Below are positions 406 to 21,097 of a stretch of 21,256 nt of DNA, one piece after another. Position 1 is the first letter of the stretch. Every line of letters starts with the position of its first letter. Both the position numbers and the translations under genes were made by a program. Origin of the DNA: a virus; the IMG/VR virus record IMGVR_UViG_3300009786_000111, positions 1-21,256 of that record; one strand, 5' to 3'. The notes below the pieces were generated by a model. It was not told where the DNA came from. It saw nothing but the letters and a program-made list of their open reading frames with translations, and did not search any database.

Positions 406-432
406 CGTTTAAACAACATCATGCTGGAACAA
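406..432 (+). repeat. 27-bp near-exact copy of a DNA polymerase segment
   Basis: Positions 406-432 match 6144-6170 at 26 of 27 bases; the only difference is G versus T at position 21 of the repeat. Both copies begin with CGTTTAAAC followed by AACATCATGCT. At 6144-6170 the sequence encodes RLNNIMLEQ near the C-terminus of the DNA polymerase. At 406-432 it lies in the gap between two lysis-like genes, just before the ribosome binding site AAAGGAG at 431-437, and is not translated in either neighbour. Confidence 0.85.
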
Positions 433-443
433 AGGAGATTACT

Positions 444-563
444 ATGACCTGGAAAACACTAAAATCTAATGTTAAATTCGTTGTGAAATCAAAGCCTTTC
501 GCCGCTAGTTTTGTGCTGGGAACTGGCGTTCTTATAGGATGGGTTCTGGGTCAGATTTTTTGA
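444..563 (+). CDS. 39-residue single-pass membrane peptide
   Basis: ATG at 444 follows a strong ribosome binding site, AAAGGAG, six bases upstream; the stop TGA is at 561-563. The peptide has a basic N-terminus (MTWKTLKSNVKFVVKSKPF) and then one hydrophobic, glycine-rich segment (AASFVLGTGVLIGWVLGQIF), so one membrane span with a positively charged cytoplasmic end is expected. It lies between the holin-like gene and a small cysteine-containing protein, so a role in lysis (second holin or antiholin) is possible but not shown. I do not recognise a named family. The near-ideal ribosome binding site and the TTGA overlap with the next gene are the main reasons to call it real. Confidence 0.65.
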   Translation: MTWKTLKSNVKFVVKSKPFAASFVLGTGVLIGWVLGQIF

Positions 564-778
564 TCTACAAAGCATTCATTATCATGTGTGCGCTCGACGG
601 TCTGGAGTGCAAGACGTATTCTCAAGACAGAGATTACAACAACCTTAATGTCTGCATGGCGTCAGCGGTTAAGATGAGACAGGAATTAAATACCCAGACG
701 CCACCTCTAAAATTCGTCACTGGCTGTATGGATAATGCAGCGGAAATGGAAATCAGGACGGGGAACCCGCGACCTTAA
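560..778 (+). CDS. Small cysteine-containing protein, possibly exported
   Basis: The frame runs to TAA at 776-778. The preferred start is TTG at 560, which shares the TTGA stop/start overlap with the upstream peptide; an in-frame ATG at 539 would add seven residues that overlap that gene. The 72-residue product starts with a short hydrophobic stretch (IYKAFIIMCALDG) and then has spaced cysteines in ECKTYS, NVCMASAV and VTGCM. This layout resembles small host and phage proteins with a short signal-like N-terminus and disulfide-type cysteines. I cannot name a function. Its place after two membrane proteins suggests the cell envelope or lysis. The last residues (EMEIRTGNPRP) are low complexity and may not be conserved. 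The 59 bp between this gene and the convergent gene ending at 838 hold only short GC-rich inverted repeats and no clear U-tract terminator. Confidence 0.6.
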   Translation: MIYKAFIIMCALDGLECKTYSQDRDYNNLNVCMASAVKMRQELNTQTPPLKFVTGCMDNAAEMEIRTGNPRP

Positions 779-837
779 TAACGGGCGACCCGCCCTGCTC
801 CACTTCCCGGCTCACTCTGGGCAGAGGGTCTGCCGGG

Positions 838-1313: not shown

Positions 1314-1387
1314 GTGTATTCCTCAACTTTATCGTAATCTCTTGAGCCATCATCGTACAGCGTCCAAATGGCAACGGGTTTCTTCAT
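1088..1387 (-). CDS. Hypothetical protein, largely overlapping the next gene
   Basis: Minus-strand ATG at 1387 forms an ATGA overlap with the stop of the upstream gene, a strong sign that translation starts here. The first 30 or so residues (MKKPVAIWTLYDDGSRDYDKVEEYTWPM) read like a genuine protein. From about residue 31 the frame overlaps the gene at 984-1313 and its composition becomes basic and serine-rich, as expected of a non-selected frame. The real product may therefore be a short N-terminal domain with an unconstrained tail, a decayed gene, or part of a frameshifted product with the downstream gene. The function is unknown. Confidence 0.45.
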   Translation of the reverse strand: MKKPVAIWTLYDDGSRDYDKVEEYTWPMTNCLTSFVSGVKRRLNTIMKTSQVAFRTIPPAIASIMLVVRCSARQALPRRLASIRPTTILKSLRDSVRKF

Positions 1388-1680
1388 TGGCTTTCCCGGT
1401 AAGTCTGCCAAGCGTATTCTCCCATATCGTCAGTGACCTGTTTAAACTTCCCGTCTTGTATCCTAAAGAAAAGACCTTCAGGGCCGAACGGTAGGTCGGG
1501 GTTGTTGTCATTGCGGTCCTTGAGAAAGCAATCGGTGATTTCGATTTCAGGGTCTTCCTCTGGTTCGCCGGGAAAGTTTAAACTGGCTTGCAAGGCGGGT
1601 CTGCCAGGGGCGACATTTGCGTTCACTTCAATCATGTCACCGGACGGTAGTTCGTAGTCGAACTGTACTGGTTCACTCAT
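1384..1680 (-). CDS. Hypothetical acidic phage protein, 98 residues
   Basis: Minus-strand ATG at 1680 overlaps the stop of the upstream gene by 8 bp (ATGAGTGA), so the pair is coupled. The product is acidic, with segments such as VQFDYELPSGDMIEVNANVAPGR, GEPEEDPEIEITDC and GPEGLFFRIQDGKFKQV. The alternating hydrophobic pattern suggests a small beta-rich fold. I recall similar short acidic proteins in phage accessory operons but no named family. Two GTTTAAAC palindromes (1440 and 1576) fall inside it, read on the coding strand as KFKQ and SLNF. The function is unknown. Confidence 0.65.
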   Translation of the reverse strand: MSEPVQFDYELPSGDMIEVNANVAPGRPALQASLNFPGEPEEDPEIEITDCFLKDRNDNNPDLPFGPEGLFFRIQDGKFKQVTDDMGEYAWQTYRESQ

Positions 1681-2072: not shown

Positions 2073-2095
2073 TTCCAAATCCTGTTCCAATGTTA

Positions 2096-2136: not shown

Positions 2137-2149
2137 CAGGAGATGTAAT

Positions 2150-2368: not shown

Positions 2369-2371
2369 GAA

Positions 2372-3496
2372 ATGAAACATCTACCTTATGGCGGGTCAGC
2401 CGAACACCGGACAATCGGGTGCAATGGTTGGCTCAAGAAATCAGAAAATCTCCCGCGAAGACCCCCCGGTAACGCCGCCATCGAAGGCTCCATGCACCAT
2501 GAGGTGCAAGAGCGTTGCCAGCGTGACGGGGTTGAGCCTGAACAGTGTGTCGGGTTCGTATATAAAGAGCCGGGTTACGAAGACACCATGACCCGTGAGT
2601 TCGCGGAAGACGATCTTGACCTGTCCCACATAGCCCTCAACGCGACGAACGTCTTGCTGGACCAACTGGACATTGACGAAATGGAGCTTGAGCCATTCGT
2701 TGAGTATGTGCCGGGTAGCCAAGGCGGGTCCATCGACCTTTTGGGTCTGTCGGTCAGCCGTGAGTGTCTCTTGATAGCCGACTACAAATTCGGAACCGTT
2801 AAAGTCTCCCCCGTGGAAAGCCCGAACTTGGGGTTGTACGGTATCAGCGCACGAAAAGACCCCAAGACCGCCGATATGTTCAAGAAGGTCAAGAAGGTGG
2901 TGTTCGCCATCATCCAACCAAGGGTCAAGGGTGTGGTCACAACGTGGGAGACGGACCTGGAGTGGCTGAACGCTTTCGAGAAGAAGCACCAAGCCGCTGT
3001 TAAAGGTACGGCCATCACCCCTGGTTCCTGGTGTAAGTACTGCCCAGCCGAACCGTTCTGCCCTGAGAAGCGTTTAAACATCGTCGCGGCGAACCTGTTA
3101 GGTGCGCGTGAACAGGACGAGTTGAACGCCGCCGCCGAAATGGTGGTCGAGGTCGAAAACTGGTGTAAATCCATCAAGGAAGAACTATTCCTTCAGATGG
3201 TGCGCGGTGTCCCTGTGCCGGGGTGGAAAATTGTCGAAAAGCGATGCACCCGCAAATGGGTGGACGAAGACAGCGCGGCGAAGGGTATCAAGTTACCCAA
3301 GAAGGATATGTTTAAGACCACCATGCTGACGCCAGCCGCTATGGAGAAGGTGGTCAAAAAGAAAAAGGTCAAGATTGACCTTGATGAGTTCATTATCTCC
3401 GTAAGCCCCGGCACTACGATAGCCACTGAGGATGACAGCCGCGAGGCTATTATCGCCAGCGACATCCAGGGTGAACTAAAGGAAATGATGAAGTAG
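2372..3496 (+). CDS. Cas4/RecB-like PD-(D/E)XK nuclease, DUF2800 family
   Basis: The 374-residue product has the features of the DUF2800 phage nuclease group: an N-terminal GNAAIEGSMHHEV segment (about residues 33-44), GGSIDLLG with Asp at about 122, and LLIADYKFG with the D-x-K pair at about 137 and 139, which together form a PD-(D/E)XK active site. A WCKYC...FC cluster (Cys 221, 224, 230) may bind iron-sulfur or zinc as in Cas4/AddB nucleases. Such genes usually precede an ssDNA-binding-like protein and a family A polymerase in phage replication cassettes, exactly as here. The expected role is DNA end processing in replication or recombination. ATG at 2372 is preceded by an AGGA-type site. 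Confidence 0.8.
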   Translation: MKHLPYGGSAEHRTIGCNGWLKKSENLPRRPPGNAAIEGSMHHEVQERCQRDGVEPEQCVGFVYKEPGYEDTMTREFAEDDLDLSHIALNATNVLLDQLDIDEMELEPFVEYVPGSQGGSIDLLGLSVSRECLLIADYKFGTVKVSPVESPNLGLYGISARKDPKTADMFKKVKKVVFAIIQPRVKGVVTTWETDLEWLNAFEKKHQAAVKGTAITPGSWCKYCPAEPFCPEKRLNIVAANLLGAREQDELNAAAEMVVEVENWCKSIKEELFLQMVRGVPVPGWKIVEKRCTRKWVDEDSAAKGIKLPKKDMFKTTMLTPAAMEKVVKKKKVKIDLDEFIISVSPGTTIATEDDSREAIIASDIQGELKEMMK

Positions 3497-3497
3497 T

Positions 3498-4280: not shown

Positions 4281-6239
4281 ATGCTCTACTTAGACCTTGA
4301 AACCAGAAGTGACGTTGACCTGATCTTTCACGGGCTTCGCCGCTATGCGAAAGACCCCTCGACGGAGGTCATCTGCATGGCCTATGCGTTTGACGATGAG
4401 GACATCAAATTCTGGTGGGCTTCCGAAAATTTCCCGTCTCGCGTAAATGAACATTTCAAGAACGTCGGTTTGGTCACCGCGCACAACGCATCTTTTGAAA
4501 AGCATATTTTCGATTTAGTTATAAACCGAACGCACGATATTGAGTCGCCCGCTAACGAACAATGGCGCTGTAGCATGGCAATGGGCCTCACGAACGGTTT
4601 TGCGGGCGGTCTGGACGCCCTGGCTGTCGGCTTGGGGCTTACCTACCGAAAACACGCAGAGGGCGCACGGCTCATTAGAGAGTACTGCGCGTCGGGTCAC
4701 CTGAAGACGTTTAAACCCGGTGACGCGGAGAAAATGAAGCAATACAACATTGACGATGTCGAGGTCATGCGGGCGGCGGTCAAATGTTTACGCCCACTGA
4801 CTGATGAGGAATGGGAAGAGTACCACATCAACGCCATCATCAATGACCGTGGTCTACCCATCGACACGGCGTTCTGCAATGCGGCGCTGACCTACACCCG
4901 CGAGGTCGCGGACGATGCCAACGAACAGATCAGCATCCTGACCGGCGGTAAGATGACCAAGGCAACCCAGCGTAATGCGCGGGACGCTTGGTTGTTCCCC
5001 AAGCTGACGCCGCACCAGATGGGTTTGCTTGAGGTCTATAAAAAAGGTAAAAAGAAAATCAGTCTTGACCACGACCACAGGCACTATCTCTTACAATGTG
5101 AGGACTTAGACCATGACGCCAGAAGATTACTTGAATACATAGACAACGCGGGTTCTTCCGCTCTCAAAAAGTTCGCTGTTGCAGCGCACCAACACGTTGC
5201 CGGGAGGGTCCACAATACCTTCCTTTTCAATGGTGCAGGGCGTACCGGGCGGTTTTCTGGTAAAGGTCTTCAACCCCATAACATCCGCCGTGATGTCTTC
5301 GACAACGATCAGGCCGAAACCCTTATTGCTGACATCCTCGCCGGTTACGAAATAGACAAACCCGCCGACACGATGGCGCGTCTACTCCGCGCCATGATCT
5401 CGCATGAAACAGGGCTGTTTTGGGTGGATTGGAAAAGTGTGGAGGGGCGCATAGCCCCGTGGTTATCGAATCACCCGTGGGGTGAGGACAAGCTGGCGTT
5501 GTTTAAACAGGATAAGGACATCTATGTCGTAACCGCCGCCGATATGTTCAACGTCAACGAAAGTGATGTCGATAGTGACTTCCGGCAGAGCGGCAAGATC
5601 GCGGAACTATCCCTTCAATTTGGCGGGAGCCACAACGCTTTAATCGGCATGGCTAAGAATTTCGGCATCACCTTTGAGGAAAATGATGCCCGCGACATCG
5701 TAATCAAGTGGCGCAGAACTAACCCTTGGGCCGAACAGATATGGACCGAATACGATAAGGCTATCACCGCCGCCGTGCTGACGCCGGGTGTGGATTTTCC
5801 GGTGGGTCGGGTGGTCTACCACTCGGACGGTAAGAACTTCCTCTGGTGTAGGCTTCCGTCCGAACGTCTGTTGTCGTACCCCAAGCCAAAGTTTGAAGCC
5901 TACATGACACCGTGGGATGAAGAACGCGTTGGCGTCACGTTCCAGAGCCATTTCAAGCCCGCCGCTGGTGAGCCGCCTATCCGTATTCATGCGCGGGGCG
6001 CTCTACTGTTCCAGAACACGGTCCAGGCGGTTGCCGCCGACTGTCTACGGGAAGCCATCTGTCGGACCCATGATGAGGGACTCGACATCGTCGGCCATGT
6101 CCACGATGAGATCATTGGCCTTGGTCCGCGTGAAGACGGAGAGCGTTTAAACAACATCATGCTTGAACAACCCTGGTGGGCCGATGGTCTGCCTATTGCA
6201 ACAGGTGGCGTGAAAAGTGGAACCCGTTATGGCAAGTGA
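4281..6239 (+). CDS. Family A DNA polymerase with 3'-5' exonuclease
   Basis: The 652-residue protein begins with a DnaQ-like exonuclease: LDLETRS with Asp5 and Glu7, HNASFE at about 68-73, and YNIDDVEV with Tyr155 and Asp159. The polymerase half has RTGRFSGKGLQPHNIRR (about 321-337), motif A WVDWKSVEGR (Asp383, Glu388, Arg390), motif B FRQSGKIAELSLQFGG (Arg435, Lys439, Phe447) and motif C HVHDE (Asp609, Glu610). These match the roughly 650-residue phage polymerases found next to DUF2800 and VRR-NUC genes. It copies the phage genome. Motif B has Phe where many relatives have Tyr. The C-terminal RLNNIMLEQ is encoded by the 27-bp segment also found at 406-432. The gene overlaps the VRR-NUC gene by 11 bp. 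Confidence 0.93.
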   Translation: MLYLDLETRSDVDLIFHGLRRYAKDPSTEVICMAYAFDDEDIKFWWASENFPSRVNEHFKNVGLVTAHNASFEKHIFDLVINRTHDIESPANEQWRCSMAMGLTNGFAGGLDALAVGLGLTYRKHAEGARLIREYCASGHLKTFKPGDAEKMKQYNIDDVEVMRAAVKCLRPLTDEEWEEYHINAIINDRGLPIDTAFCNAALTYTREVADDANEQISILTGGKMTKATQRNARDAWLFPKLTPHQMGLLEVYKKGKKKISLDHDHRHYLLQCEDLDHDARRLLEYIDNAGSSALKKFAVAAHQHVAGRVHNTFLFNGAGRTGRFSGKGLQPHNIRRDVFDNDQAETLIADILAGYEIDKPADTMARLLRAMISHETGLFWVDWKSVEGRIAPWLSNHPWGEDKLALFKQDKDIYVVTAADMFNVNESDVDSDFRQSGKIAELSLQFGGSHNALIGMAKNFGITFEENDARDIVIKWRRTNPWAEQIWTEYDKAITAAVLTPGVDFPVGRVVYHSDGKNFLWCRLPSERLLSYPKPKFEAYMTPWDEERVGVTFQSHFKPAAGEPPIRIHARGALLFQNTVQAVAADCLREAICRTHDEGLDIVGHVHDEIIGLGPREDGERLNNIMLEQPWWADGLPIATGGVKSGTRYGK

Positions 6240-8152: not shown

Positions 8153-9148
8153 ATGACTAAACTGCAAAACGTCCCAATGGACGCTATCGACGCCAACCCG
8201 TTCAGGCGGCTTGGTGACTATCCTTACGTTGAGCGTAAACTCGACGCACTGAAACGCTCCATCGAAGACGTTGGTCTTTGGGAGGGCGTCATTGCCCGTA
8301 AGAAAGGCAACCGTTACGAAATCGCCTTCGGACATCACCGTATGGAAGCCGCAAGACAAACGGGTTTGAAAGAAGTCTCCGTTGTTGTCCGCAAGCTGGA
8401 CGATGAACAGATGCTTCAATTCATGGGCCGTGAGAACCTTGAAGATTATAATGCCGACTTTGCCACCATGCTTGAGACATGGGAAGCCGCACTTAATTTC
8501 CCGGGCGCGGCCCGGGGTGACCTCAGTGTTGCGAAGTTATTGGGTTGGACAAACACCCATGAGCGCGACGGTGAACAGATGAGCGACACCGCGAGGGCTT
8601 GCTCTGCCGTGAATAGCCTTATCGTCAATAACCATGTGAAGCGCGAAGACTTTCATAATCTCTCAGTGAAGACGGCTAAAATTATAAGTGAGCGGGCTAA
8701 AGCCAACATTACCCGTGTCGTAAAGACCGCTAAGAAGAACAAACGGCCTGTCGAGGAAGTCGAGGAAGCTAAGAAGCAAATCGGCAAGGCAGTCACCAAG
8801 ACGGCAAAAGAAAGCCGCCGGGGTGAAATCGCGCAGAAGGACTTGCGGGGTCAGGTCGATGTAAATGCTTATCGCTTTGCCAAGCAGAGTAAAAAGCAAT
8901 CCCCACTATTTAAACAGTTTGGCGATCAACTGAAGAACAGCATCACTAAAATGCTGAACGGTGACAGCACCTCGACGAAATTGGCGGAAGTTACCGCCGC
9001 TCTTGGGGACATCACGCTGGAAGAAGATCATGCGGTGGTCCGCGCCATCAAGTTTGAATTGGGTGAACTGTCTGGCCGCGCCGACAAATGGGTTATTACT
9101 ATGGACCCGAAGAAGGTGGTCAACTTGAAGGAGATTTCCAATGAGTAA
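8153..9148 (+). CDS. ParB-like nuclease/DNA-binding protein
   Basis: ATG at 8153 has a GGAG site eight bases upstream; a TTG at 8096 overlapping the helicase stop is less likely. The 331-residue protein has a ParB/Srx-type N-terminal domain: VPMDAIDANPFRRLGDYP, then LKRSIEDVGLWEGVIARKK, the signature FGHHRMEAARQTG (matching GxxR-x-x-A) and MGRENLEDYNADF. The C-terminal part is rich in Lys and Glu (VVKTAKKNKRPVEEVEEAKK) and likely helical. Phage ParB-like proteins act as nucleases, transcription regulators or DNA-clamping factors, and the exact role here is open. It overlaps the next gene by 8 bp (ATGAGTAA). Because the window has a highly repeated palindrome, a sequence-specific ParB relative is of interest as a possible reader. 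Confidence 0.8.
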   Translation: MTKLQNVPMDAIDANPFRRLGDYPYVERKLDALKRSIEDVGLWEGVIARKKGNRYEIAFGHHRMEAARQTGLKEVSVVVRKLDDEQMLQFMGRENLEDYNADFATMLETWEAALNFPGAARGDLSVAKLLGWTNTHERDGEQMSDTARACSAVNSLIVNNHVKREDFHNLSVKTAKIISERAKANITRVVKTAKKNKRPVEEVEEAKKQIGKAVTKTAKESRRGEIAQKDLRGQVDVNAYRFAKQSKKQSPLFKQFGDQLKNSITKMLNGDSTSTKLAEVTAALGDITLEEDHAVVRAIKFELGELSGRADKWVITMDPKKVVNLKEISNE

Positions 9149-12148: not shown

Positions 12149-12166
12149 GGCGCGGGCATAAAAACA

Positions 12167-12202
12167 CCCGACACAGCGTTTAAACTGTGTCGGGCTATTT
12201 TT
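12167..12202. terminator. Bidirectional terminator with GTTTAAAC loop
   Basis: Arms CCCGACACAG (12167-12176) and CTGTGTCGGG (12185-12194) form a perfect 10-bp stem. The 8-nt loop and first closing base contain GTTTAAAC. CTATTTTT follows on the plus strand and a T-run also follows on the minus strand, so it can end the primase transcript and the leftward HTH transcript. Confidence 0.8.
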
Positions 12203-12249
12203 ATGGTCGATCAGGATGGAAAAGTATTATTTTTTGCCGCGCCCGTCGA

Positions 12250-12438: not shown

Positions 12439-12515
12439 TGCATTTACCTATCCATTTTTAAGGCCCGTCAAGGCTATGTCATTTTGTCCGGTATGTCACC
12501 CTATAAAAAGGGGAG

Positions 12516-12551
12516 AAGGCCCGCCAGGGGTTAACCTGGCGGGCCTATTTT
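12516..12551. terminator. Hairpin terminator between HTH gene and leftward small genes
   Basis: Arms GGCCCGCCAGG (12518-12528) and CCTGGCGGGCC (12535-12545) flank GGTTAA. TATTTT follows on the plus strand, and on the minus strand the hairpin is followed by TTCTCCCCTTTTTA. It lies just beyond the stop of the 82-residue leftward gene. Confidence 0.75.
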
Positions 12552-12584
12552 GGGGTTTATCGGGTTTATTCAAGGTTTGTCGCC

Positions 12585-12833
12585 TCAAAGTCGTTTGTTC
12601 TTCCATATAAAATCGAAATCAAGATGGTTGGCCAAAGCAATTTTTCCATTGACTTCTATAATCATATCATAACCGTCGAACCAATCTCCGCCGTCGTTGT
12701 TGTCCCGGCGTATTAGGAATTTTAGATTATCGTCAACGGTACAAACGTCTTGAACAGAATATTGGCAATATAGGACGCCCGCCACTCTGTCGTCTTCTGG
12801 CATTTCGTGAGATATTCTTATTATATTAGGCAT
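12585..12833 (-). CDS. Hypothetical protein, 82 residues
   Basis: The frame is open further upstream, but ATG at 12833 has a strong AAAGGAA site and removes overlap with the upstream gene. The product starts MPNIIRISHEMPEDDRVAGV and contains LYCQYSVQDVCTVDDNLKFLI, then RRDNNDGGDWFDGYDMIIEV and NGKIALANHLDFDFIW. It is acidic with alternating hydrophobic residues, suggesting a small beta-rich domain. I recognise no family. It is the last gene of a leftward unit and is followed by a terminator. Confidence 0.65.
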   Translation of the reverse strand: MPNIIRISHEMPEDDRVAGVLYCQYSVQDVCTVDDNLKFLIRRDNNDGGDWFDGYDMIIEVNGKIALANHLDFDFIWKNKRL

Positions 12834-12864
12834 TGGTTCGTTCCTTTTATGATGGGTTTTGGGT

Positions 12865-13095
12865 TTATTCGCCGATTTCCCCTTGTGAAAGTAATTTTTC
12901 GACGCCCGCGCCATGATGGCGGGTTTGGTAAACATGGAAACAATCTTTTCCTGTTTCCTCATTATACCAAACGTCAACGCGAACCGCGCCCGCCCATGAT
13001 GCCGCAACCGTTGTAAGGCCCGTTGATTTATGGGCGCGGGCCGTTGGGACTGTCTTGCGGGCGCTTGTCGGAATAGAACCGTAAAAATGTGACAT
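12865..13095 (-). CDS. Hypothetical protein, 76 residues
   Basis: Minus-strand ATG at 13095 has AAAGGAAAA upstream. The N-terminal third is Ser/Thr/Ala-rich and basic (MSHFYGSIPTSARKTVPTAR), and the rest reads VRVDVWYNEETGKDCFHVYQ, ending in a GVEKLLSQGEIGE tail. No membrane segment or catalytic motif is seen. It shares the repeated leader style of its neighbours (TTTC-CTTTCA on the plus strand) and the same orientation. The function is unknown. Confidence 0.6.
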   Translation of the reverse strand: MSHFYGSIPTSARKTVPTARAHKSTGLTTVAASWAGAVRVDVWYNEETGKDCFHVYQTRHHGAGVEKLLSQGEIGE

Positions 13096-13131
13096 AAGAT
13101 TTTCCTTTCATAAAAAACCTTTGGTTAATTT

Positions 13132-13344
13132 CTAAGTCGAGTGATAGCGTATTCCACCGTTGACCCCAGATTGTCTAGTTTCTGCAAAACCCTCTTTTAC
13201 GGCTCGGTCGAGCAAGTTAAACCGCTCGCGCTTTGCCTGCCACTGGTCGAGGTCTTGCGGCGCTAATCCCGCATTATCATGGTCTTGGTCGGACCATAAT
13301 TCACGCAGTATGCGATCAAAATTTGTTATCTGTAGAACAGACAT
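13132..13344 (-). CDS. Hypothetical protein, 70 residues
   Basis: Minus-strand ATG at 13344 overlaps the stop of the upstream 44-residue gene (TAATG) and follows AAGGG. The product is charged and mainly helical: MSVLQITNFDRILRELWSDQ, then QDLDQWQAKRERFNLLDRAVKE, then GFAETRQSGVNGGIRYHST. It could be a small nucleic-acid or protein-binding factor but I recognise no family. The overlap implies co-translation with the upstream gene. Confidence 0.6.
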   Translation of the reverse strand: MSVLQITNFDRILRELWSDQDHDNAGLAPQDLDQWQAKRERFNLLDRAVKEGFAETRQSGVNGGIRYHST

Positions 13345-13478
13345 TACTTTTTTCCCTTCATGGTTTTCTTGAGGGCTTTTTTCAAAGCGTCTTTTATATC
13401 CTTTTCAGACTTTGCCGCTGTAACGTCTTTTGTTATGTCGATAACTTTGTCGCCTACGACCATTTCAAAACTTGGCAT
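13344..13478 (-). CDS. 44-residue Lys-rich peptide gene
   Basis: Minus-strand ATG at 13478 follows GAAAGGGA, and the stop is shared with the next start as TAATG. The peptide reads MPSFEMVVGDKVIDITKDVT, then AAKSEKDIKDALKKALKKTM and KGKK. The second half is an amphipathic, strongly basic helix that could bind nucleic acid or an acidic protein. It is the first gene after the terminator at 13522-13554 and after a copy of the 20-bp TTGGGATAATYCCCGCAAAA element. Confidence 0.6.
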   Translation of the reverse strand: MPSFEMVVGDKVIDITKDVTAAKSEKDIKDALKKALKKTMKGKK

Positions 13479-13521
13479 TGTTTTTCCCTTTCAAAAGAAA
13501 AGCGTTTGGGATAATTCCCGC

Positions 13522-13554
13522 AAAAGGCAGAGCGCGTTTAAACGCTCTGCCCTT
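13522..13554 (-). terminator. Terminator of the clamp-like gene, GTTTAAAC loop
   Basis: Arms GGCAGAGCG (13526-13534) and CGCTCTGCC (13543-13551) form a perfect 9-bp stem whose loop is almost exactly GTTTAAAC (13536-13543). On the minus strand TTTTG follows. It lies nine bases beyond the clamp-like stop codon. Confidence 0.75.
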
Positions 13555-13562
13555 TAAGTGAA

Positions 13563-14126
13563 TTACACCCGGCGCGGCATTAGCACCGAATAGACGTTCT
13601 CAAGGTCGCCATATTTTACATAGTGCGGTGACGTTGCATCCTCTCCGCGCAATTGAACCGCAAGCGCCCCTGAACCGTTGCCGAGAATTTTCGCACCGTT
13701 GGCAACGGTGATTAATAGGTCAGCACCGAACGCGCCATGCGATACCTGGCTATCGTCTGTTGACGGCATAACCCGTTCCCAATCAGGAAACGTGCCGTCA
13801 ATTGCTTCTGACGGTTCCATATAAAGTTTATTGTCGAACTCATCCCATACCGTCAACGTGCCGTCTTTAAATTCAACATATTCCGCTTTTTTGCCTTTCA
13901 TGGCGGTGATTGCCTTTTTTGAAATCGGCATGATTGCTGGTGCGTCTGTAGGGTTGTCTTTTGCGCGTTCGCTATCGTCAACCGCAACCGTCATTAAGTG
14001 ACCGTCTGTCGCAACCGCCGTTATGCCGTTGAGCATTACACCGTTCAGGTAATAGCGGGTTTCCTCTGTCGAAATTGCAAGCGCAACGGCGGCGAGGGTT
14101 GAGGCGTTATATTTGATTGTGTTCAT
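13563..14126 (-). CDS. Short DnaN-like sliding clamp protein
   Basis: Minus-strand ATG at 14126 has a GAAAGGAA site. The 187-residue product carries beta-clamp hallmarks: STEETRYYLNGVMLN followed by VATDGHLMTVAV (about residues 19-48), FPDWERVMP in the second half, and the C-terminal VLMPRRV, which mirrors the clamp end VLMPMRL. Bacterial beta clamps are about 370 residues with three domains; this is half that size, so it represents roughly one and a half domains and may form a different oligomer or act as a clamp mimic. It may hold the phage polymerase on DNA or block host clamp use. It has its own terminator hairpins on both sides, so it is a single-gene unit lying apart from the other replication genes. 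Confidence 0.75.
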   Translation of the reverse strand: MNTIKYNASTLAAVALAISTEETRYYLNGVMLNGITAVATDGHLMTVAVDDSERAKDNPTDAPAIMPISKKAITAMKGKKAEYVEFKDGTLTVWDEFDNKLYMEPSEAIDGTFPDWERVMPSTDDSQVSHGAFGADLLITVANGAKILGNGSGALAVQLRGEDATSPHYVKYGDLENVYSVLMPRRV

Positions 14127-14164
14127 TTTGGTTCCTTTCAGAAAACCTTTGGGATAATCCCCGC

Positions 14165-14194
14165 AAAACGTCAGGGGCTAACCCCTGGCGTTTT
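14165..14194. terminator. Hairpin terminator, both directions possible
   Basis: AAAACGTCAGGGG and CCCCTGGCGTTTT pair over 13 bp with one wobble around CTAA. The A-tract and T-tract flanks give a U-run on either strand. It lies just past the stop of the leftward gene at 14202. Confidence 0.75.
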
Positions 14195-14201
14195 AAGTGA
14201 T

Positions 14202-14432
14202 TTATTCCGTTTTGACTTGTGAATAATCGCCCGCCCGGTTTTCTTTCCAAATCTTGATATTCGGATATGTAACCTTGGCATGGGCAATGGCCTCTTTTTG
14301 CGTCGCAAACCATTTACCCCTAAAACCCTCCCAAGGTTTGTTACACATTGCGACATTGAAACCCGGCTTTCCGAACGCACACCAGATAGAGACGCATTTC
14401 ATTCGGTTTGCGTGAAAACTATTCATATTCAT
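14202..14432 (-). CDS. Hypothetical protein, 76 residues
   Basis: Minus-strand ATG at 14432 has AGGGGAG five bases upstream; a GTG at 14438 would sit directly on that site and is less likely. The product reads MNMNSFHANRMKCVSIWCAFGK..., then FNVAMCNKPWEGFRGKWFA, then TQKEAIAHAKVTYPNIKIWK and ends in QVKTE. A compact alpha/beta domain seems likely, with a 'FaTqkEAiaHA' segment also seen in other small phage proteins. The function is unknown. Its start lies just after the stop of the 31-residue membrane peptide. Confidence 0.65.
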   Translation of the reverse strand: MNMNSFHANRMKCVSIWCAFGKPGFNVAMCNKPWEGFRGKWFATQKEAIAHAKVTYPNIKIWKENRAGDYSQVKTE

Positions 14433-14434
14433 TT

Positions 14435-14530
14435 TCACTCCCCTTTAAAAATAACTGCTAAGACTGCAATGCAAAGCATAACGGACAAACCGTTAACGGC
14501 TATCCAATCAAGAATATTGAGTGAGATCAT
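14435..14530 (-). CDS. 31-residue membrane peptide
   Basis: Minus-strand ATG at 14530 follows GAAAGGAAA and the stop TGA is at 14437-14435, directly before the next start. The peptide is MISLNILDWIAVNGLSVMLC followed by IAVLAVIFKGE, one continuous hydrophobic segment with an acidic residue near the start and a Lys/Glu end. It would span the membrane once. The clear ribosome binding site and stop/start proximity support translation. The role is unknown. Confidence 0.55.
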   Translation of the reverse strand: MISLNILDWIAVNGLSVMLCIAVLAVIFKGE

Positions 14531-14565
14531 TTTTAGGTTTCCTTTCAAAGTTTAACTACCACAAA

Positions 14566-14622
14566 GCCCCGGCGCTAGGCCCGCTTGTTATCGGGCTAGT
14601 GGCGATTTAAGCTCGCGCGGGG
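14566..14622 (-). ncRNA. Structured intergenic segment, possible terminator or RNA element
   Basis: An outer stem pairs GCCCC/GCGC (14566-14575) with GCGC/GGGG (14615-14622) and an inner stem pairs GCCCG (14579-14583) with CGGGC (14592-14596). It lies between two leftward genes. The U-tract on the minus strand is weak (CTTTGT), so it may be a terminator or a structured leader of the downstream membrane peptide. Confidence 0.35.
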
Positions 14623-14634
14623 GATTGTTGAGGG

Positions 14635-14862
14635 TTATAGGTCAGCGAATGTTTCTTCTGAATTGTAATTCGGGGAAGGATCATATTTAGTGAAGGCGCT
14701 TAAAGGCCCGCCGGTTTGTTGCGTCGTATTATGGCCAGTGGCGTTTATGTATAGCATTGTTCCGCTATAGACTGTAAAGATTGAGCGCACCCTGTAAATG
14801 TTTTTATCGGGGCCCCAATTGGGGGTTACTAAGTCGCCTTCGTTAATTCCATGTCTTGCCAT
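14635..14862 (-). CDS. Hypothetical KOW/SH3-like small protein, 75 residues
   Basis: Two starts are possible: ATG at 14868 lies only three bases from AAAGGAG, while ATG at 14862 has ideal spacing and is preferred. The product has MARHGINEGDLVTPNWGPDK, then NIYRVRSIFTVYSGTMLYIN, then a polar C-terminus (HNTTQQTGGPLSAFTKYDPS). The 'i.eGDlV.p' opening and alternating strands recall small KOW or SH3-like beta-barrels that bind nucleic acids or proteins; this is a resemblance only. It follows the 38-residue gene with a TAA-ATG junction. Confidence 0.6.
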   Translation of the reverse strand: MARHGINEGDLVTPNWGPDKNIYRVRSIFTVYSGTMLYINATGHNTTQQTGGPLSAFTKYDPSPNYNSEETFADL

Positions 14863-14868
14863 AATCAT

Positions 14869-14985
14869 TTACTCCTTTGTTGGTTTATCTATTGCCAAAG
14901 ACCCGCTTACGAGATTATCGGGCGCGTCATTAAAACTTTTAACCCGTAGTTTTCCGCTTTTTGCGATTACGATAAATTTTGCCAT
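14869..14985 (-). CDS. 38-residue peptide gene
   Basis: Minus-strand ATG at 14985 follows GAAAGGGAA and the stop TAA is at 14871-14869, directly before the next gene. The peptide reads MAKFIVIAKSGKLRVKSFND followed by APDNLVSGSLAIDKPTKE. It looks like a short beta-hairpin domain of the 'kfiViaksGKLrVks' type. The function is unknown. It is the first gene after a candidate promoter at 15014-15042. Confidence 0.6.
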   Translation of the reverse strand: MAKFIVIAKSGKLRVKSFNDAPDNLVSGSLAIDKPTKE

Positions 14986-15013
14986 TAGAATTCCCTTTCA
15001 AAAACGTATTCCT

Positions 15014-15042
15014 TACATACGCGCCATATTGTCACATTGCAA
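15014..15042 (-). promoter_or_regulatory. Leftward promoter candidate
   Basis: On the minus strand TTGCAA (15042-15037) is followed after exactly 17 bp by TATGTA (15019-15014), about 30 bp before the start of the 38-residue gene and just after the terminator at 15061-15092. Confidence 0.4.
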
Positions 15043-15060
15043 GAAAAAAGTTTAAACGCT

Positions 15061-15092
15061 TTCCCGTCCGAATAAAATCGGACGGGAATTTT
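15061..15092. terminator. Bidirectional hairpin terminator
   Basis: Arms TTCCCGTCCGA (15061-15071) and TCGGACGGGAA (15078-15088) pair perfectly over 11 bp around ATAAAA, followed by TTTTGTTT on the plus strand. A GTTTAAAC lies three bases before it (15050-15057). It ends the leftward unit that starts near 15450. Confidence 0.75.
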
Positions 15093-15094
15093 GT

Positions 15095-15160
15095 TTAAAG
15101 GTTTGCGTTCATCCCCCATATTAAAAGGCAAACGACTAACACTAAACCGGATTTAATCAT
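15095..15160 (-). CDS. Putative 21-residue hydrophobic peptide
   Basis: An ATGA overlap joins its ATG (15160) to the stop of the upstream gene, and its stop TAA (15097-15095) is followed at once by a terminator. The peptide is MIKSGLVLVVCLLIWGMNAN plus a final L, nearly all hydrophobic after the first four residues, so one membrane span is likely. Its tiny size makes it uncertain. The coupling, composition and position before the terminator are the support. Confidence 0.4.
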   Translation of the reverse strand: MIKSGLVLVVCLLIWGMNANL

Positions 15161-15450
15161 GGTGCGGTTTTCAGGTATTGAGATAAACCGAATAAACCTT
15201 TGGTGTCTAAAATCTCAATAGCCTCTTTTGACGCGATAAAAGTACAAACGGCATTTGTAAACTCTTTGCTATCACTCAAAAACCATTGCATTCCTTCTAA
15301 TGCGTTTGCTCTATCTTCTACCATTTTGGCTCTGATTTCCTGGCGGGCGGTTTTCGTTTCAGGTTTGCTATCGCAAACGAATAAACGATTATCCTTTTTT
15401 GTGTTCATACCAATTAGACGGAATAGGTTTGGAAATCTTACAGCGCCCAT
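15157..15450 (-). CDS. Hypothetical protein, about 97 residues
   Basis: The frame stays open upstream to 15621 but that would run under the opposing terminase gene. ATG at 15450 or 15408 are the realistic starts, neither with a clear ribosome binding site. The product reads MGAVRFPNLFRLIGMNTKKD, then NRLFVCDSKPETKTARQEIR, AKMVEDRANALEGMQWFLSD, and ends in FIASKEAIEILDTKGLFGLS. It is soluble, helical and charged, with no recognised motif. It is transcribed away from the terminase genes, across the divergent palindrome at 15467-15484. Confidence 0.6.
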   Translation of the reverse strand: MGAVRFPNLFRLIGMNTKKDNRLFVCDSKPETKTARQEIRAKMVEDRANALEGMQWFLSDSKEFTNAVCTFIASKEAIEILDTKGLFGLSQYLKTAP

Positions 15451-15479
15451 TGCAAAAAAACGGTTTGCGGTATTATAAT
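15450..15479 (+). promoter_or_regulatory. Rightward promoter of the packaging genes
   Basis: TTGCAA (15450-15455) is followed after 18 bp by a perfect TATAAT (15474-15479), 39 bp before the TTG start at 15518. The -10 lies inside the 18-bp palindrome, so a bound protein would block it. Confidence 0.6.
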
Positions 15480-15484
15480 ACCGC
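15467..15484. promoter_or_regulatory. Perfect 18-bp palindrome, operator candidate
   Basis: GCGGTATTATAATACCGC is identical to its reverse complement. It lies between the leftward gene at 15157-15450 and the rightward terminase genes and overlaps a TATAAT on each strand. A related sequence with two changed bases is at 3498-3515. Confidence 0.7.
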
Positions 15485-15517
15485 GCCAATGGGTTGGTTT
15501 TAGAAAAGGACAAAGCA

Positions 15518-15865
15518 TTGTCGCGTAAAAAAGGAACGCCTAACAAAATGACAGCGGCAATAAAGGACGCCGTTGAATTGTCATTCAGCAAGAAAAACAA
15601 GGGCGGTAAATATCTCGACAAGCTGGCTGACGATTTTCCCGCCGTCTATTGTGGTCTGATCGCAAAATGTATGCCGCAAGCGATTGCGGTTGACGTTCAA
15701 ATTCATGCCATAAACCTTGGCCTTGAAATGAAACGCGCCGCTGACACCCTAGCCCTGCTGACCCATCCACCCGACACACCGCCTCTCATAGATGTAACAC
15801 CCGACACAGTACAACCTGACACACCGTCACCTGTCACTGTGTCGGGTGATGCTGATGATGTTTAA
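15518..15865 (+). CDS. terS: Putative small terminase subunit-like protein
   Basis: TTG at 15518 has AAAAGGA seven bases upstream; an in-frame TTG at 15494 has no such site. The 115-residue protein begins MSRKKGTPNKMTAAIKDAVE, then LSFSKKNKGGKYLDKLADDF and PAVYCGLIAKCMPQAIAVDV. The '.rKKGtpNK.t..ik.a...' opening with 'yL..LA...Pa.y..LiaK.mP' is seen in small phage proteins encoded just before the large terminase and annotated as small terminase or TerS-like. TerS proteins recognise the packaging site and regulate TerL. The C-terminus has PDTP-type repeats (PPDTPPLIDVTPDTVQPDTP) encoded by the CACCCGACAC DNA repeats. The call rests on position and resemblance, not on a certain family match. 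Confidence 0.6.
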   Translation: MSRKKGTPNKMTAAIKDAVELSFSKKNKGGKYLDKLADDFPAVYCGLIAKCMPQAIAVDVQIHAINLGLEMKRAADTLALLTHPPDTPPLIDVTPDTVQPDTPSPVTVSGDADDV

Positions 15866-15973
15866 ACAACGCACCCGACACACCACATATTACAATAGGT
15901 TGCACACCCGGCATACCACAACTGTTAGTATTAAATCGGTTTTGAGATTATCGAAGGCGGGGTGTGCCGGGTG
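15768..15973. repeat. Cluster of seven CACCCGACACACC-type repeats, candidate pac/cos site
   Basis: Copies or variants start at 15768 (CACCCGACACACC), 15798 (CACCCGACACAGT), 15813 (AACCTGACACACC), 15872 (CACCCGACACACC) and 15905 (CACCCGGCATACC). Inverted copies are at 15836 (ACTGTGTCGGGTG) and 15961 (GGTGTGCCGGGTG). 15798-15810 and 15836-15848 are a perfect 13-bp inverted repeat with a 25-nt loop. The cluster covers the end of the TerS-like gene and the start of the 202-bp gap before the large terminase, a common place for the packaging initiation site. The stem of the terminator at 12167 uses the same sequence. Confidence 0.7.
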
Positions 15974-17600: not shown

Positions 17601-17640
17601 TGGTCCTCTCCCCGGACAAAACGGTCCTATACCGTTTAAA

Positions 17641-17669
17641 CTCCCCAGCCTTGCGCTGGGGAGTTTTTT
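17641..17669 (+). terminator. Rho-independent terminator after large terminase
   Basis: CTCCCCAGC and GCTGGGGAG pair over 9 bp around CTTGC, followed by TTTTTTC. GTTTAAAC (17634-17641) abuts the stem, and a second small hairpin (AAACGGT/ACCGTTT) lies just before it. Confidence 0.85.
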
Positions 17670-18072: not shown

Positions 18073-18073
18073 T

Positions 18074-18319: not shown

Positions 18320-19932
18320 GTACCAAAGCCGCTGACATCATCAAACGCTATGAACAGTTGGAAAGCGAACGGGGAACGTGGGAAACACACTGGACGGAGA
18401 TAGCGGACAGGATTTTACCACGGTACTCTGATACCTTTTTCAAACCTACGTCTGAACAGACGAAGGGTGAGAAGCGCACCGAAAAGATGATCGACAGCAC
18501 GGGCGGCTTGGCCCTTGAGAGGTTTGCCGCCGCGATGGAGAGTATGTTGACACCGCGTACTCAGAAGTGGCACAGGCTGACGCCCGACCATGACGAGTTG
18601 GGGAAAGAGCGGGACGTTAAGTTGTGGTTTGAGCAAGCGACCAACGTCCTGTTTAAACAACGCTACGCATCGAAAGCCAACTACGCCAGCCAGCAACATG
18701 AAAGCTATATGGGCTTGGGCGCGTTCGGTACGTCCGTCATGTTCGTGGACAAGCACGACAAGGGCGGCTTGCGGTATGCCTCGACCAACATCAAAGAGAT
18801 TTTGTTTGAGTTGAACCACCAAGGTTTGCTCGACACCACCTATCGGAAATACTCACTGACCGCACGGCAGATGATGCAACGGGTCGAGTTGAAGCGGTGG
18901 GAAAGCGTACCTGACGAAGTCACGAAGGCGAACGAGAAGACGCCCGACAAACGCTTTGACATCATCCACTGTATTCGTCCACGCAAAGAAGTCGAACCAA
19001 ACCGGGTGGACGCCAGAGGCAAGGAGTTTGCGTCTTTCTATATCGCCGTCAACGGCCAGCACGTTTTGAGCGAAGGCGGCTACGACACGATGCCGTATCA
19101 GATTTCACGGTACGTCACTGGACCGGGTGAAAAATACGGGCGCTCTCCCGCCATGTTTGTTTTACCGTCCATAAAAGTTTTAAACGAGCAGAAGAAAACA
19201 ATGCTCACGCAGGGACACAGAGCGGTTGCGCCCGTTCTGTTATCGCATGATGACGGTATCCTTGATACCTTCAGCATGGCCCCCGGCAGTATGAACCCCG
19301 GCGGTGTTACCGCCGAAGGCCGCGCCCTTGTCCACGCCCTCCCCGTGGGCAACCTCGCGGCTGGGCAAGAGTTGATGGACATGGAGCGTCAAGTAATTAA
19401 CGATGGATTTTTAGTTAGCCTTTTTCAAATCCTCGTAGAGACGCCTCAGATGACGGCGACAGAAGTGTTGGAACGCGCCCGTGAGAAGGGTGCGTTGTTG
19501 TCTCCCACGATGGGACGCCAACAGTCTGAAAGCCTTGGCCCGATGATCGAACGTGAAGTTGACGTTCTTATGAAACAAAATATCTTACCCCCGATGCCCG
19601 AAGTCATGGTTGAGGCACAGGCCGAGTTTGAGATTGTCTATGACAGCCCCCTGTCCCGGTCCCAACGGGCAGAGGAAGCAAGCGGCTGGCTCCGCACGTT
19701 GGAAGCCGCCATTGCCTACGCGAACACCACGCAAGACCTGTCGGTCCTCGACCAGTTCGACAGCGATGTCATCTACCAGCAACTAGCGGAGATCAACGCG
19801 GTCCCGGCGTCTTGGATGCGTGATCCCGCCGCGATTCAACAACTACGCGAAGCCCGCGCACAACAACAACAAATGCAACAGATGGTCGATGCCGCGCCCG
19901 CCGCCGCTGGTGTAATGAAGGCGCTGAACTAA
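18316..19932 (+). CDS. Head-tail connector / portal protein, T7-like
   Basis: The 538-residue protein begins MSTKAADIIKRYEQLESERG, then TWETHWTEIADRILPRYSDTFF, the opening typical of podovirus head-tail connector proteins (Head-tail_con family), and is near the usual 520-560 length. Other family-like segments are RTEKMIDSTGGLALERFAAA (about residues 56-75), the GEKYGRSPAMFVLPSIKVLN stretch (about 270-290) and TPQMTATEVLERAREKGALL (about 380-400). The C-terminal part is rich in Gln (QLREARAQQQQMQQMVD). It forms the dodecameric ring at the capsid vertex through which DNA is packaged and ejected. ATG at 18316 overlaps the previous stop as ATGA, and the next gene starts as TAATG. Confidence 0.9.
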   Translation: MSTKAADIIKRYEQLESERGTWETHWTEIADRILPRYSDTFFKPTSEQTKGEKRTEKMIDSTGGLALERFAAAMESMLTPRTQKWHRLTPDHDELGKERDVKLWFEQATNVLFKQRYASKANYASQQHESYMGLGAFGTSVMFVDKHDKGGLRYASTNIKEILFELNHQGLLDTTYRKYSLTARQMMQRVELKRWESVPDEVTKANEKTPDKRFDIIHCIRPRKEVEPNRVDARGKEFASFYIAVNGQHVLSEGGYDTMPYQISRYVTGPGEKYGRSPAMFVLPSIKVLNEQKKTMLTQGHRAVAPVLLSHDDGILDTFSMAPGSMNPGGVTAEGRALVHALPVGNLAAGQELMDMERQVINDGFLVSLFQILVETPQMTATEVLERAREKGALLSPTMGRQQSESLGPMIEREVDVLMKQNILPPMPEVMVEAQAEFEIVYDSPLSRSQRAEEASGWLRTLEAAIAYANTTQDLSVLDQFDSDVIYQQLAEINAVPASWMRDPAAIQQLREARAQQQQMQQMVDAAPAAAGVMKALN

Positions 19933-20198
19933 TGGCGGTTATACAATTAGCGGAACAGGTGAAAAACTTTCTTGTCACCCGTGGACAAGCCTACCGTCAG
20001 ACGTTCAACGGAATTTATGGTGAGCGGGTCTTGATTGATCTGGCGCGGTTCTGTCGGGCGAATGAGAGTACGTTCGTACCTGATTCCCGCGCTGAAGGAA
20101 TTTTACAAGGACGCCGTGAGGTGTGGCTCCGTATCTCAAAACACCTCAACCTGTCTGAAGATCAGCTTCAGACGTACTTCAACCCACAAGGAGAGTAG
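19932..20198 (+). CDS. Bbp19-like phage protein
   Basis: The 88-residue product starts at ATG 19932, overlapping the portal stop (TAATG). It has RGQAYRQTFNGIYGERVLIDLA, then RFCRANESTFVPDSRAEGIL, then QGRREVWLRISKHLNLSEDQ. The 'Y...F...g..vl.DL.rFC.a..stf.pd.r..g...GrRevwLrI...l.l' pattern is that of the Bbp19 family of phage structural-region proteins. The function is not established; location between portal and scaffold points to head assembly. The family assignment is from memory. Confidence 0.7.
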   Translation: MAVIQLAEQVKNFLVTRGQAYRQTFNGIYGERVLIDLARFCRANESTFVPDSRAEGILQGRREVWLRISKHLNLSEDQLQTYFNPQGE

Positions 20199-20203
20199 AG
20201 ACA

Positions 20204-21097
20204 ATGGCCGAAGAAGCTGGGTCCGTGGAAGCGGGCAACCCAGGGGAAGCAAACGCGCCCTCTGGCGAGACAAGCGCAGACGTAAACGCGGTAGCGGGTT
20301 CGCCCCTAGCTACTGAAACAACGACAGGTTGGATTGAAGGGGTACAAGACCCCACGACGAAGGCTTGGGCTGAAGCAAAAGGATTACAAAACGGAAGTTT
20401 TGAAAATGTCCTTGGGAGTTACCACAACCTCGAAAAGATGGTCGGCGCAGACCGCGCCGGGCGCACGATTACTATGCTGGGTGATGATGCCACACCGGAA
20501 GAAAAAGCTGAGTTCTACACAAAGCTGGGGCGTCCGAAGGAAGCGGGGCAATACTCTGTCGCGTTGCCTGAAGGCGTCACCGATACCACACGCATTGATA
20601 TGATGCGTAACAAAGCGCACGAACTTGGTATCACGGATGCCCAGCTATCGGGTTTGGCTGAAGCCGACCAAGCGTACTTTGAAGCCGCTACGCAAGGGGC
20701 AGTAGATGACAAAGCCGTCTCTGCCGCTGATGCGGAGAAACAGTTGCGTACCGAATGGGGCGCGGCGTTCGACTTGAAGGTTGCGGGTATTGACGTTGCC
20801 GCTCACAAGTTAGGTATGTCGGACGAACAGTTGACGGGCTTGCGCGAAAGCATGGGTCCGGTGGAAGCCATGAAATTCGTGGACGGTTTAAACACTAAGA
20901 TTGGAGATCACAATTTCGAAGATGGCATCCCCGTCACACCGGGCCACAAGACGCCTGAACAAGCTAAAGCAGAATTAGCGGACCTGTCCATGAATAAGGA
21001 ATTTCAGGACGCTTGGCTCAATAAACAACACCCCGGTCACACGGCGGCGGTTGAGAAGAAAGCCGCCTTGGCTCGTCTCATGGCGGGTGTGGTGTAA
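20204..21097 (+). CDS. Capsid scaffold-like protein
   Basis: ATG at 20204 follows AAGGAGAG. The 297-residue protein has an acidic, Ala/Gly/Thr-rich N-terminus (MAEEAGSVEAGNPGEANAPS), then VQDPTTKAWAEAKGLQNGSF, then YHNLEKMVGADRAGRTITML with DDATPEEKAEFYTKLGRPKE, where the 'LGRP....Y' segment follows, and a long helical C-terminal half ending in AAVEKKAALARLMAGVV. This order matches podovirus scaffolding proteins that guide capsid assembly and are then released. It lies after the portal as expected, so the major capsid protein should follow beyond the window. Confidence 0.8.
   Translation: MAEEAGSVEAGNPGEANAPSGETSADVNAVAGSPLATETTTGWIEGVQDPTTKAWAEAKGLQNGSFENVLGSYHNLEKMVGADRAGRTITMLGDDATPEEKAEFYTKLGRPKEAGQYSVALPEGVTDTTRIDMMRNKAHELGITDAQLSGLAEADQAYFEAATQGAVDDKAVSAADAEKQLRTEWGAAFDLKVAGIDVAAHKLGMSDEQLTGLRESMGPVEAMKFVDGLNTKIGDHNFEDGIPVTPGHKTPEQAKAELADLSMNKEFQDAWLNKQHPGHTAAVEKKAALARLMAGVV

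Follow-up and report, generated by a model that had tools for sequence, protein, structure and literature searches.

A genome-wide octamer in a podovirus-like phage is probably read by the tail of a SprT-like phage protein

Introduction

Short sites that are dispersed over a phage genome and recognized by a phage protein have been described as stoperators in Cluster A mycobacteriophages (L5, TipsytheTRex; PMC9283540) and in Streptomyces R4-type phages (PMC10276819); there, the sites are 13 bp long and asymmetric, their orientation is tied to transcription, they lie in short intergenic gaps, and their reader is a monomeric repressor with two helix-turn-helix (HTH)-like domains. Here we examine the IMG/VR virus record IMGVR_UViG_3300009786_000111, a podovirus-like phage sequence of 21,256 bases that was analyzed in full and is called the window below, in which the octamer GTTTAAAC occurs in 17 exact copies. 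The system that we propose is like stoperators, as described there (PMC9283540, PMC10276819), in combining a phage protein with many short genome-wide sites, some of them at promoters. It differs in that the sites are 8-bp palindromes or near-palindromes, that many lie in coding DNA and in either orientation, that they also occur in a phage described as lytic, and that the motif co-varies with a SprT-like protein ending in a zinc-ribbon-like tail, rather than with an HTH immunity repressor.

Two other systems bear a partial likeness. HIP1 of cyanobacteria, a host chromosomal word, is a highly iterated 8-base palindrome; GTTTAAAC is likewise an 8-base palindrome iterated throughout a genome, but it is viral and varies with a viral protein. 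The crosslink protease SPRTN (SprT/Spartan, PF10263) is DNA-dependent and is not known to be sequence-specific. The phage proteins considered here have the HExxH metalloprotease fold in common with it, and 6mdw is their best structural match, but unlike SPRTN they come with sequence-specific sites that track the tail, and some members are without HExxH or consist of little but the tail.

We propose, at a probability of about 0.8, that the tail of a phage-encoded protein family, usually a SprT/Spartan-like metalloprotease, reads GTTTAAAC as its recognition site, and that the sites act as operators and genome-wide docking points. The reader would be a C-terminal loop, K-x-Q-x-T-[R/Y]-[M/L], together with a small zinc-ribbon-like module, which would read an 8-base palindrome of two GTTT-like half-sites, presumably as a dimer, with Arg or Tyr in the loop deciding whether the outermost base pair is G or C. 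In every phage lineage, the octamer recognized by the phage's own protein would be kept at many places in the genome. Some sites would be operators at the -10/+1 positions of promoters, including the sprT promoter in a subset of phages, and the remaining sites, which lie across coding DNA and are more even than chance in several genomes, would probably be docking or road-block points. The window phage would belong to such a lineage. An earlier note on this DNA, made from the letters alone, had listed a phage-encoded binding protein among several possibilities; this appears to be the best reading, with a SprT-like protein as the co-varying partner.

Dispersed motifs near starts, with no role reported, are described in Microbacterium phages (PMC7302621). 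The 18-bp motif of Cluster EC given there, TAGaCTATaGGTgTaAgC, resembles a -10 box followed by GTGTAAgC, a GTGTAAAC-like octamer, and a term search of that text found none of GTTTAC, TGTAAAC and SprT (PMC7302621). Neither GTTTAAAC as a phage-genome motif nor a SprT-like protein tied to the octamer appeared among the literature matches listed, which took in few subscription papers; this is consistent with the earlier note, which knew of no word of this sequence and gave it no use. Dispersed sites for a phage protein are already known from stoperators, whereas we found nothing in print on this octamer, on its proposed family of readers or on a residue-base code.

Results and Discussion

GTTTAAAC is over-represented and maintained with turnover

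The 17 copies of GTTTAAAC far exceed both the 100 dinucleotide shuffles of the window (mean 0.49, maximum 3) and the expectation of an order-3 Markov model (0.66), and each of the other 8-base palindromes in the window has at most two copies. TTTAAA occurs 23 times, 17 times within GTTTAAAC and six times elsewhere, which agrees with the count of about six that the earlier note had made by eye. That note had also named a maximum-order Markov analysis as the check on its claim. The resulting expectation, 14.9 copies, taken alone speaks against over-representation and nominally refutes the claim, but the model is powerless for this octamer, because it is built on 7-mers (18 and 19 copies) that are hardly found outside GTTTAAAC.

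Comparison with relatives points the same way for some lineages and not for others. Among 20 contigs encoding a close terminase, GTTTAAAC is dense in 12 and absent or single in eight; two further terminase relatives, DSL-LC05 and MW202898, hold 0 and 3 copies. In 18 motif-rich relatives aligned to the window, 34 of 66 covered sites are kept (7.1 expected, taking sequence identity to the eighth power) and 14 sites are at new positions, and in nine motif-poor relatives 0 of 11 are kept (0.6 expected); the aligned rows are related and some are near-identical, so that these counts are no formal test. The expectation that copies would be abundant and conserved in relatives is therefore borne out by the motif-rich relatives and contradicted by the motif-poor ones. 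As judged from these alignments, the pattern is that of a dispersed signal selected for presence and missing as a whole in some lineages, in line with the idea of a real, selected, genome-wide palindromic signal.

A SprT-like family with a distinctive tail accompanies the octamer

A pattern of three spaced octamers matched 104 stretches of viral contigs, of which 80 were used for palindrome ranking, clustering of open reading frames (ORFs) and a survey of HExxH, and all 104 for a comparison with a narrower pattern. In 79 of the 80 analyzed stretches, GTTTAAAC is the commonest 8-base palindrome, at up to 4.6 copies/kb, the stretches having been chosen for dense motifs. When the ORFs of the 80 motif-picked loci were clustered together with those of the window and its relatives, the most widespread family was a SprT-like protein of ~200 residues, present in 39 loci (L006 and L023 are one record) and occurring in relatives of the window as well as in unrelated contigs with 32-57% G+C; the next family was found in 38 loci, all within the motif-picked set. 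Among six SprT-like members, four match PF10263 (two above the gathering score) and all six match phrog_6361, and the C-terminus reads K-x-Q-x-T-R-[M/L]-x-K followed by cysteines, a zinc-ribbon-like tail. Of 50,697 phage records, 167 hold a match to the family, among them phages of E. coli, and the annotations given there are 'SprT-like protease', 'transcription elongation protein', 'antirestriction protein' or 'hypothetical protein'.

The association holds whether the starting point is the protein or the motif. When loci were picked by SprT homology only, 109 of 133 deduplicated loci were enriched (73 in GTTTAAAC and 37 in GTTTACAC, one of them in both), compared to 0 of 60 contigs picked by a random 14-mer, and five control words were enriched in neither set. 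One of the protein-picking scans used the tail pattern KKQ[STG]TRM, which favors intact tails, and 16 of the 133 loci, which had no simple ORF match, were left out of the ORF-based step. In the reverse test, which covered 50 of the 80 motif-picked loci and 50 of the 68 random ones, a profile of the family matched 29 of the 50 motif-picked records (eight of the 29 in the C-terminal part only) and 0 of the 50 random ones, with the profile's positive matches elsewhere as positive control.

We also examined 26 named SprT phages (of 167-193 with a match), chosen by us for diversity rather than at random. All 18 with a KxQxTR-type tail carry 4-40 copies of one motif, either GTTTAAAC (R26L 20, R5C 17, Pan1 16, Mica 7, KA2-1 7, Bas97 6, MQ-4 6, ep3 4, Persinger 4) or GTTTACAC (Intolerant 40, Zeta1847 22, Crewmate 21, JuneStar 20, Emotion 17, SuMoo 16, GardenState 16, MaGuCo 15, phage 4A 13). 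None of the eight without this tail is enriched, GTTTAAAC being absent and GTTTACAC absent or single; these proteins end in KSRSGKS or KSRSGRS (Eden, Kieran, Bachaco, Armstrong, Gack) or in another tail lacking KxQxTR (CN1, PSA20, Epa5). CN1 holds one GTTTACAC (0.49 expected) and Gack one GTGTACAC, and the counts for Kieran, Bachaco and Gack cover the first 40,000 bases only. We consider it very probable, on the strength of these genome comparisons, that the link between tail and octamer is strong and runs in both directions.

Plain presence of SprT was tried as the cause of GTTTAAAC and rejected, since the actinophages Emotion and Zeta1847 hold 0 copies. This conflict was resolved when the operator position was found to hold GTTTACAC, a motif that was identified by reading the sprT promoter first and was counted over whole genomes afterwards. 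As a rival palindrome in Zeta1847, CGAGCTCG was also set aside: half of its 81 copies are due to composition (42 expected).

A residue of the tail loop goes with the outermost base of the octamer

Loci with neither GTTTAAAC nor GTTTACAC yielded further variants, namely GTGTACAC with the loop KTQTTRY (L209, L211, L219), CTTTAAAG with TYLLK (L210, L216, L281) and CTTTACAG with KTYMLK (L338). When 161 deduplicated loci were counted again with a loop pattern that was anchored, Arg was found in the loop of 139, of which 122 have an outer-G motif (GTTTAAAC, GTTTACAC or GTGTACAC), 0 an outer-C motif and 17 none, and all four loci with Tyr have an outer-C motif (CTTTAAAG or CTTTACAG). None of these motifs was found with Trp in the loop (one locus, L342) or where the loop is lost (L284, L322, L502, L509, L510). 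Further rows of the recount were incomplete (L276, L479), misread by the pattern (L305, L511) or without an ORF (eight loci); L216, which fits the Tyr rule, was dropped as a duplicate.

The change of motif can be seen between related loci. The locus L210 (KKQKTYLLK) has 15 copies of CTTTAAAG and 0 of GTTTAAAC, whereas L477 (KKQTTRLLK), 73% identical, has 0 of CTTTAAAG and nine of GTTTAAAC, and L478 (TY) has 25 of CTTTAAAG and 0 of GTTTAAAC. Both L477 and L478 obey the rule, which had been written down before they were retrieved.

Some loci stand apart. Both GTTTAAAC and GTTTACAC are enriched in L196, L486, L494, L499 and L511, which may be caught between one motif and the other. The code may also extend to L197 (11,016 bases; tail KQTTRN), with eight copies of GTCCACAC against 0.2 expected, and L284 (20,567 bases; tail KQPWKASV), with nine of ACCCGGTC and eight of AGACCGGG against 0.4-0.5.

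The tail rather than the protease tracks the octamer

In 48 aligned members, H86, E87 and H90 of the HExxH motif are invariant. Seven members are without HExxH (L029, L031, L088, L091, L098, L099, L105), counting only members with a printed sequence as other rows were fragments or pattern misses, and four frames of ~100 residues hold little but the tail (L035, L061, L090, L104, of which L035 and L090 may be near-duplicates). The contigs of these HExxH-less and tail-only members have 1.6-4.6 sites/kb, in loci picked for dense motifs. Thus, since such members sit in motif-dense contigs, it is the tail rather than the protease that tracks the motif, and the protease seems, from these sequences, to be dispensable for the signal.

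An AlphaFold2 (AF2) model of the L274 protein has a mean predicted local distance difference test (pLDDT) score of 92. For the protease part, the best structural match is Spartan (6mdw; Z 8.4, root-mean-square deviation 3.8, 101 residues); the score is close to the range where, according to the tool, common arrangements can give matches, but it agrees with the PF10263 assignment. The tail is modeled as strand-strand-helix-strand (pLDDT 85.7), and C18 and C43 are invariant in 44 tails. Foldseek gave no match in the PDB at E<=0.001 for either the whole protein or the tail alone.

Sites at promoters, their orientation and their spacing

In ep3, Bas97, MQ-4 and Mica, the octamer starts just after a -10-like box (by eye), 15-19 nt before sprT; GTTTACAC occupies that place in Crewmate and Emotion, and a site precedes sprT in KA2-1, Persinger, MaGuCo, JuneStar and SuMoo. 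Overall, a site lies within 120 nt upstream of sprT in 28 of 98 loci, compared to 7.2 expected. Since the octamer sits at the sprT promoter there, sprT is probably autoregulated in this subset. Judged by eye, several sites in Emotion follow TAGACT-like boxes, and several in Zeta1847 lie between TTGCG and TATGAT-like boxes.

The two orientations of GTTTACAC are nearly equal in Intolerant (19/21) and unequal in Crewmate (14/7), JuneStar (14/6) and Zeta1847 (16/6). Sites are spaced more evenly than at random in seven of the eight sequences chosen (P < 0.05), including the window (P = 0.047), R26L and Intolerant (both P < 0.0002). Among GTTTACAC contigs, 13 of 14 are more even than the random median, compared to 120 of 255 for control palindromes.

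Other repeated words were noted in two of these groups. In the Nanhaivirus phages R5C, R26L and Pan1, the words ATAAGCGA, ATAACTCG and GAGTTATA are over-represented as well and may mark a phage promoter, and the Arthrobacter phage Emotion (L136) has another repeated element, with 14 copies of CACGTGAA, 20 of CGTGAAAC and seven of the palindrome TCACGTGA (0.5 expected).

Sites and sprT in the window and its clade

The genes of the window include those for DNA polymerase A, a SNF2-type helicase, a ParB_N protein, a DUF5906 protein, a terminase and a head-tail adaptor. With genes chosen by us from the ORF list, six of the 17 sites are intergenic (2.4 expected) and 11 are in coding DNA. The sites of GTTTAAAC, which carry no strand, and the place of sprT in relatives are as follows.

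407..414, intergenic, within a 26-33 bp stretch that recurs at ~6138-6170
1440..1447, in ORF 1384-1680 (minus strand)
1576..1583, in ORF 1384-1680 (minus strand)
3072..3079, in the DUF2800/PD-(D/E)XK gene; not conserved in G002, L420, L421, L422, L424 and L425
4709..4716, in the DNA polymerase A gene
5501..5508, in the DNA polymerase A gene
6145..6152, in the DNA polymerase A gene
9792..9799, in the DUF5906 gene
11268..11275, in the DUF5906 gene
11544..11551, in the DUF5906 gene
12178..12185, intergenic, in the loop of a hairpin seen by eye (CCCGACACA..TGTGTCGGG); stretch matched in L274
13536..13543, intergenic, in the loop of a hairpin seen by eye (GGCAGAGC..GCTCTGCC)
15050..15057, intergenic, adjoining a hairpin seen by eye (TCCCGTCCG..CGGACGGGA)
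15860..15867, spanning the end of ORF 15494-15865; scored as intergenic, as it extends beyond the stop
17634..17641, intergenic, directly before a hairpin and T run seen by eye (CTCCCCAGC..GCTGGGGAG)
18651..18658, in the head-tail adaptor (portal) gene
20886..20893, in ORF 20204-21097
12440..15490, minus strand, position of the sprT-like gene in L274 and G002, on the strand opposite to terminase; in the window this place is taken by different genes, without sprT

The stretch of 26-33 bp with GTTTAAAC that is common to 407-431 (intergenic) and 6138-6170 (DNA polymerase gene) was also found against L420, L422 and L423; it looks like the result of a transfer of one copy. The hairpins with GTTTAAAC in the loop, at 12160-12205 and 13525-13555, are both intergenic, and the sites at 15050 and 17634 adjoin hairpins; CCGACACA/CCCGACAC, a hairpin stem word, is among the top 8-mers of the window.

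In the window clade, sprT is present in seven of 31 records, all seven motif-rich. No gene of the window matches more than 14 of the 109 motif-rich loci. L274, with 82% nucleotide identity to the window over 883 bases of the terminase region, and G002 have sprT between primase-side genes and terminase, and in L017 it lies upstream of the terminase. For the window phage itself, no sprT or tail-like ORF was found in ~35 kb, made up of the window, 5.7 kb to the left (L423, 97.4% identical to the window over 3,365 bases) and the right-overlapping G001; ~6 kb of this phage, tail genes by synteny with G002, is unseen. Because the gene was not found in these ~35 kb, the window sites are explained by lineage and not by a gene in hand; the window phage may have lost the gene, carry it elsewhere or use another reader.

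The missing gene is one of several observations that weigh against the SprT-like tail as reader of the octamer. Most motif-rich records of the window clade, being fragments, show no sprT either. The related loci of the co-occurrence test are not independent, so that P values overstate the association; ep3 and Persinger hold only four copies each; 17 of 139 loop-Arg loci are without an enriched motif, and the Tyr cases amount to about three lineages. At the promoter, a site directly upstream of sprT is missing from 70 of 98 loci, and GTTTACAC loci make up 22 of the 28 positives; GardenState, phage 4A and Zeta1847 have no site within 120-160 nt of sprT, and in R26L and R5C the nearest site is 285-381 nt away. 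Even spacing is weak in GTTTAAAC contigs (17 of 28) and absent in Zeta1847 (P = 0.16). Finally, matches to the fold of the tail are weak, with Z under 4.

What the sites might do

From the sequence patterns we infer physical binding, dimerization, zinc binding, autorepression and a genome-wide role of the sites; that role may be autorepression with stoperator-like silencing, a guard or organizer role, or both. If silencing is the function, the SprT-like protein would act as a repressor, stopping initiation where sites lie at promoters and elongation where they are dispersed, and its protease domain would inactivate or tune it. This version of the proposed reading, which we regard as plausible though short of even odds, draws on the several sites that overlap promoter-like boxes in Emotion and Zeta1847, on the sprT promoter in a subset of phages, and on the window sites beside or inside terminator-like hairpins. 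It is harder to reconcile with the 11 of 17 window sites in coding DNA and with sites that are palindromic or in both orientations, as in Intolerant. Moreover, R5C is called lytic in its description (PMC5454422), so that lysogeny would not be the common theme.

A broader proposal, which we put forward only tentatively, is that these phages represent an unrecognized class of genome-marking systems, in which a SprT-like protease, a pseudo-protease or a stand-alone mini zinc-ribbon would read an octamer spread over the phage genome by a simple code, in which Arg in the loop goes with an outer G, Tyr with an outer C, and KTQTTRY with GTGTACAC. Phages would rewrite dozens of sites across the genome when the specificity of the reader changes, so that the sites would define 'self' DNA and would dock a protease or architectural protein that protects, silences or organizes the viral genome.

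We think it rather unlikely that the sites serve a genome guard or organizer, in which evenly placed sites would keep a DNA-bound protease, or a dead architectural form of it, near all phage DNA, where it would clear or exclude host DNA-bound proteins or fold the genome. The even spacing in seven of eight sequences and in the GTTTACAC contigs would suit such a role, as would one homologue annotated as 'antirestriction protein' and the digestion by SPRTN of proteins crosslinked to DNA (PMC5127644). However, the GTTTAAAC contigs are only weakly even, and proteolysis seems unneeded for the signal because HExxH-less members sit in site-dense contigs.

The SprT-like tail as reader would give this phage protein family a candidate target and a DNA code, and would link the fold of a DNA-protein-crosslink protease to sequence-specific DNA recognition. 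Natural pairs such as L210 and L477 offer a specificity switch together with genome-wide rewriting of sites for study, and the reading is directly testable with small proteins and octamer duplexes.

Other readers and sources of the octamer

The earlier note had given the ParB-like protein at 8153-9148 as an example of a possible reader. A ParB_N domain is indeed present in the window, yet, unlike in a ParB-parS system, no homologue encoded with the sites was found at E<1e-4 in the 109 motif-rich loci, many of which are fragments of up to 20 kb, or in 27 named phages; we rejected this protein as a general reader, and consider it very improbable that it reads GTTTAAAC. Selection of the octamer by restriction-modification, a methyltransferase or composition, with no dedicated binding protein, finds some encouragement in that GTTTAAAC is also the PmeI restriction site, but is more improbable still, given that the motif changes with the SprT-like tail, that these contigs show no enrichment of the five control words, and that restriction-modification pressure usually removes sites.

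A host-genome signal of the HIP1, DUS (DNA uptake sequence) or Chi kind, copied by the phage, is a further candidate, and analogy is the only support that we found for it. The narrower octamer pattern occurs at three places in 84,980 bacterial and archaeal species genomes, one of them a tandem repeat, compared to 11 of the 104 viral stretches, a negative that covers hosts within this collection. Host chromosomes are thus an unlikely source, and the motif is common to phages of Escherichia, Serratia, Klebsiella, Burkholderia, Pseudomonas, Dinoroseobacter and Pseudanabaena; we give this explanation hardly any weight. Among the three bacterial matches, L133, from a Scalindua metagenome-assembled genome (MAG), is the tandem repeat, rich in GTTTAAAC, and L134, from an Omnitrophota MAG, holds 11 copies within 8 kb and is possibly of viral origin.

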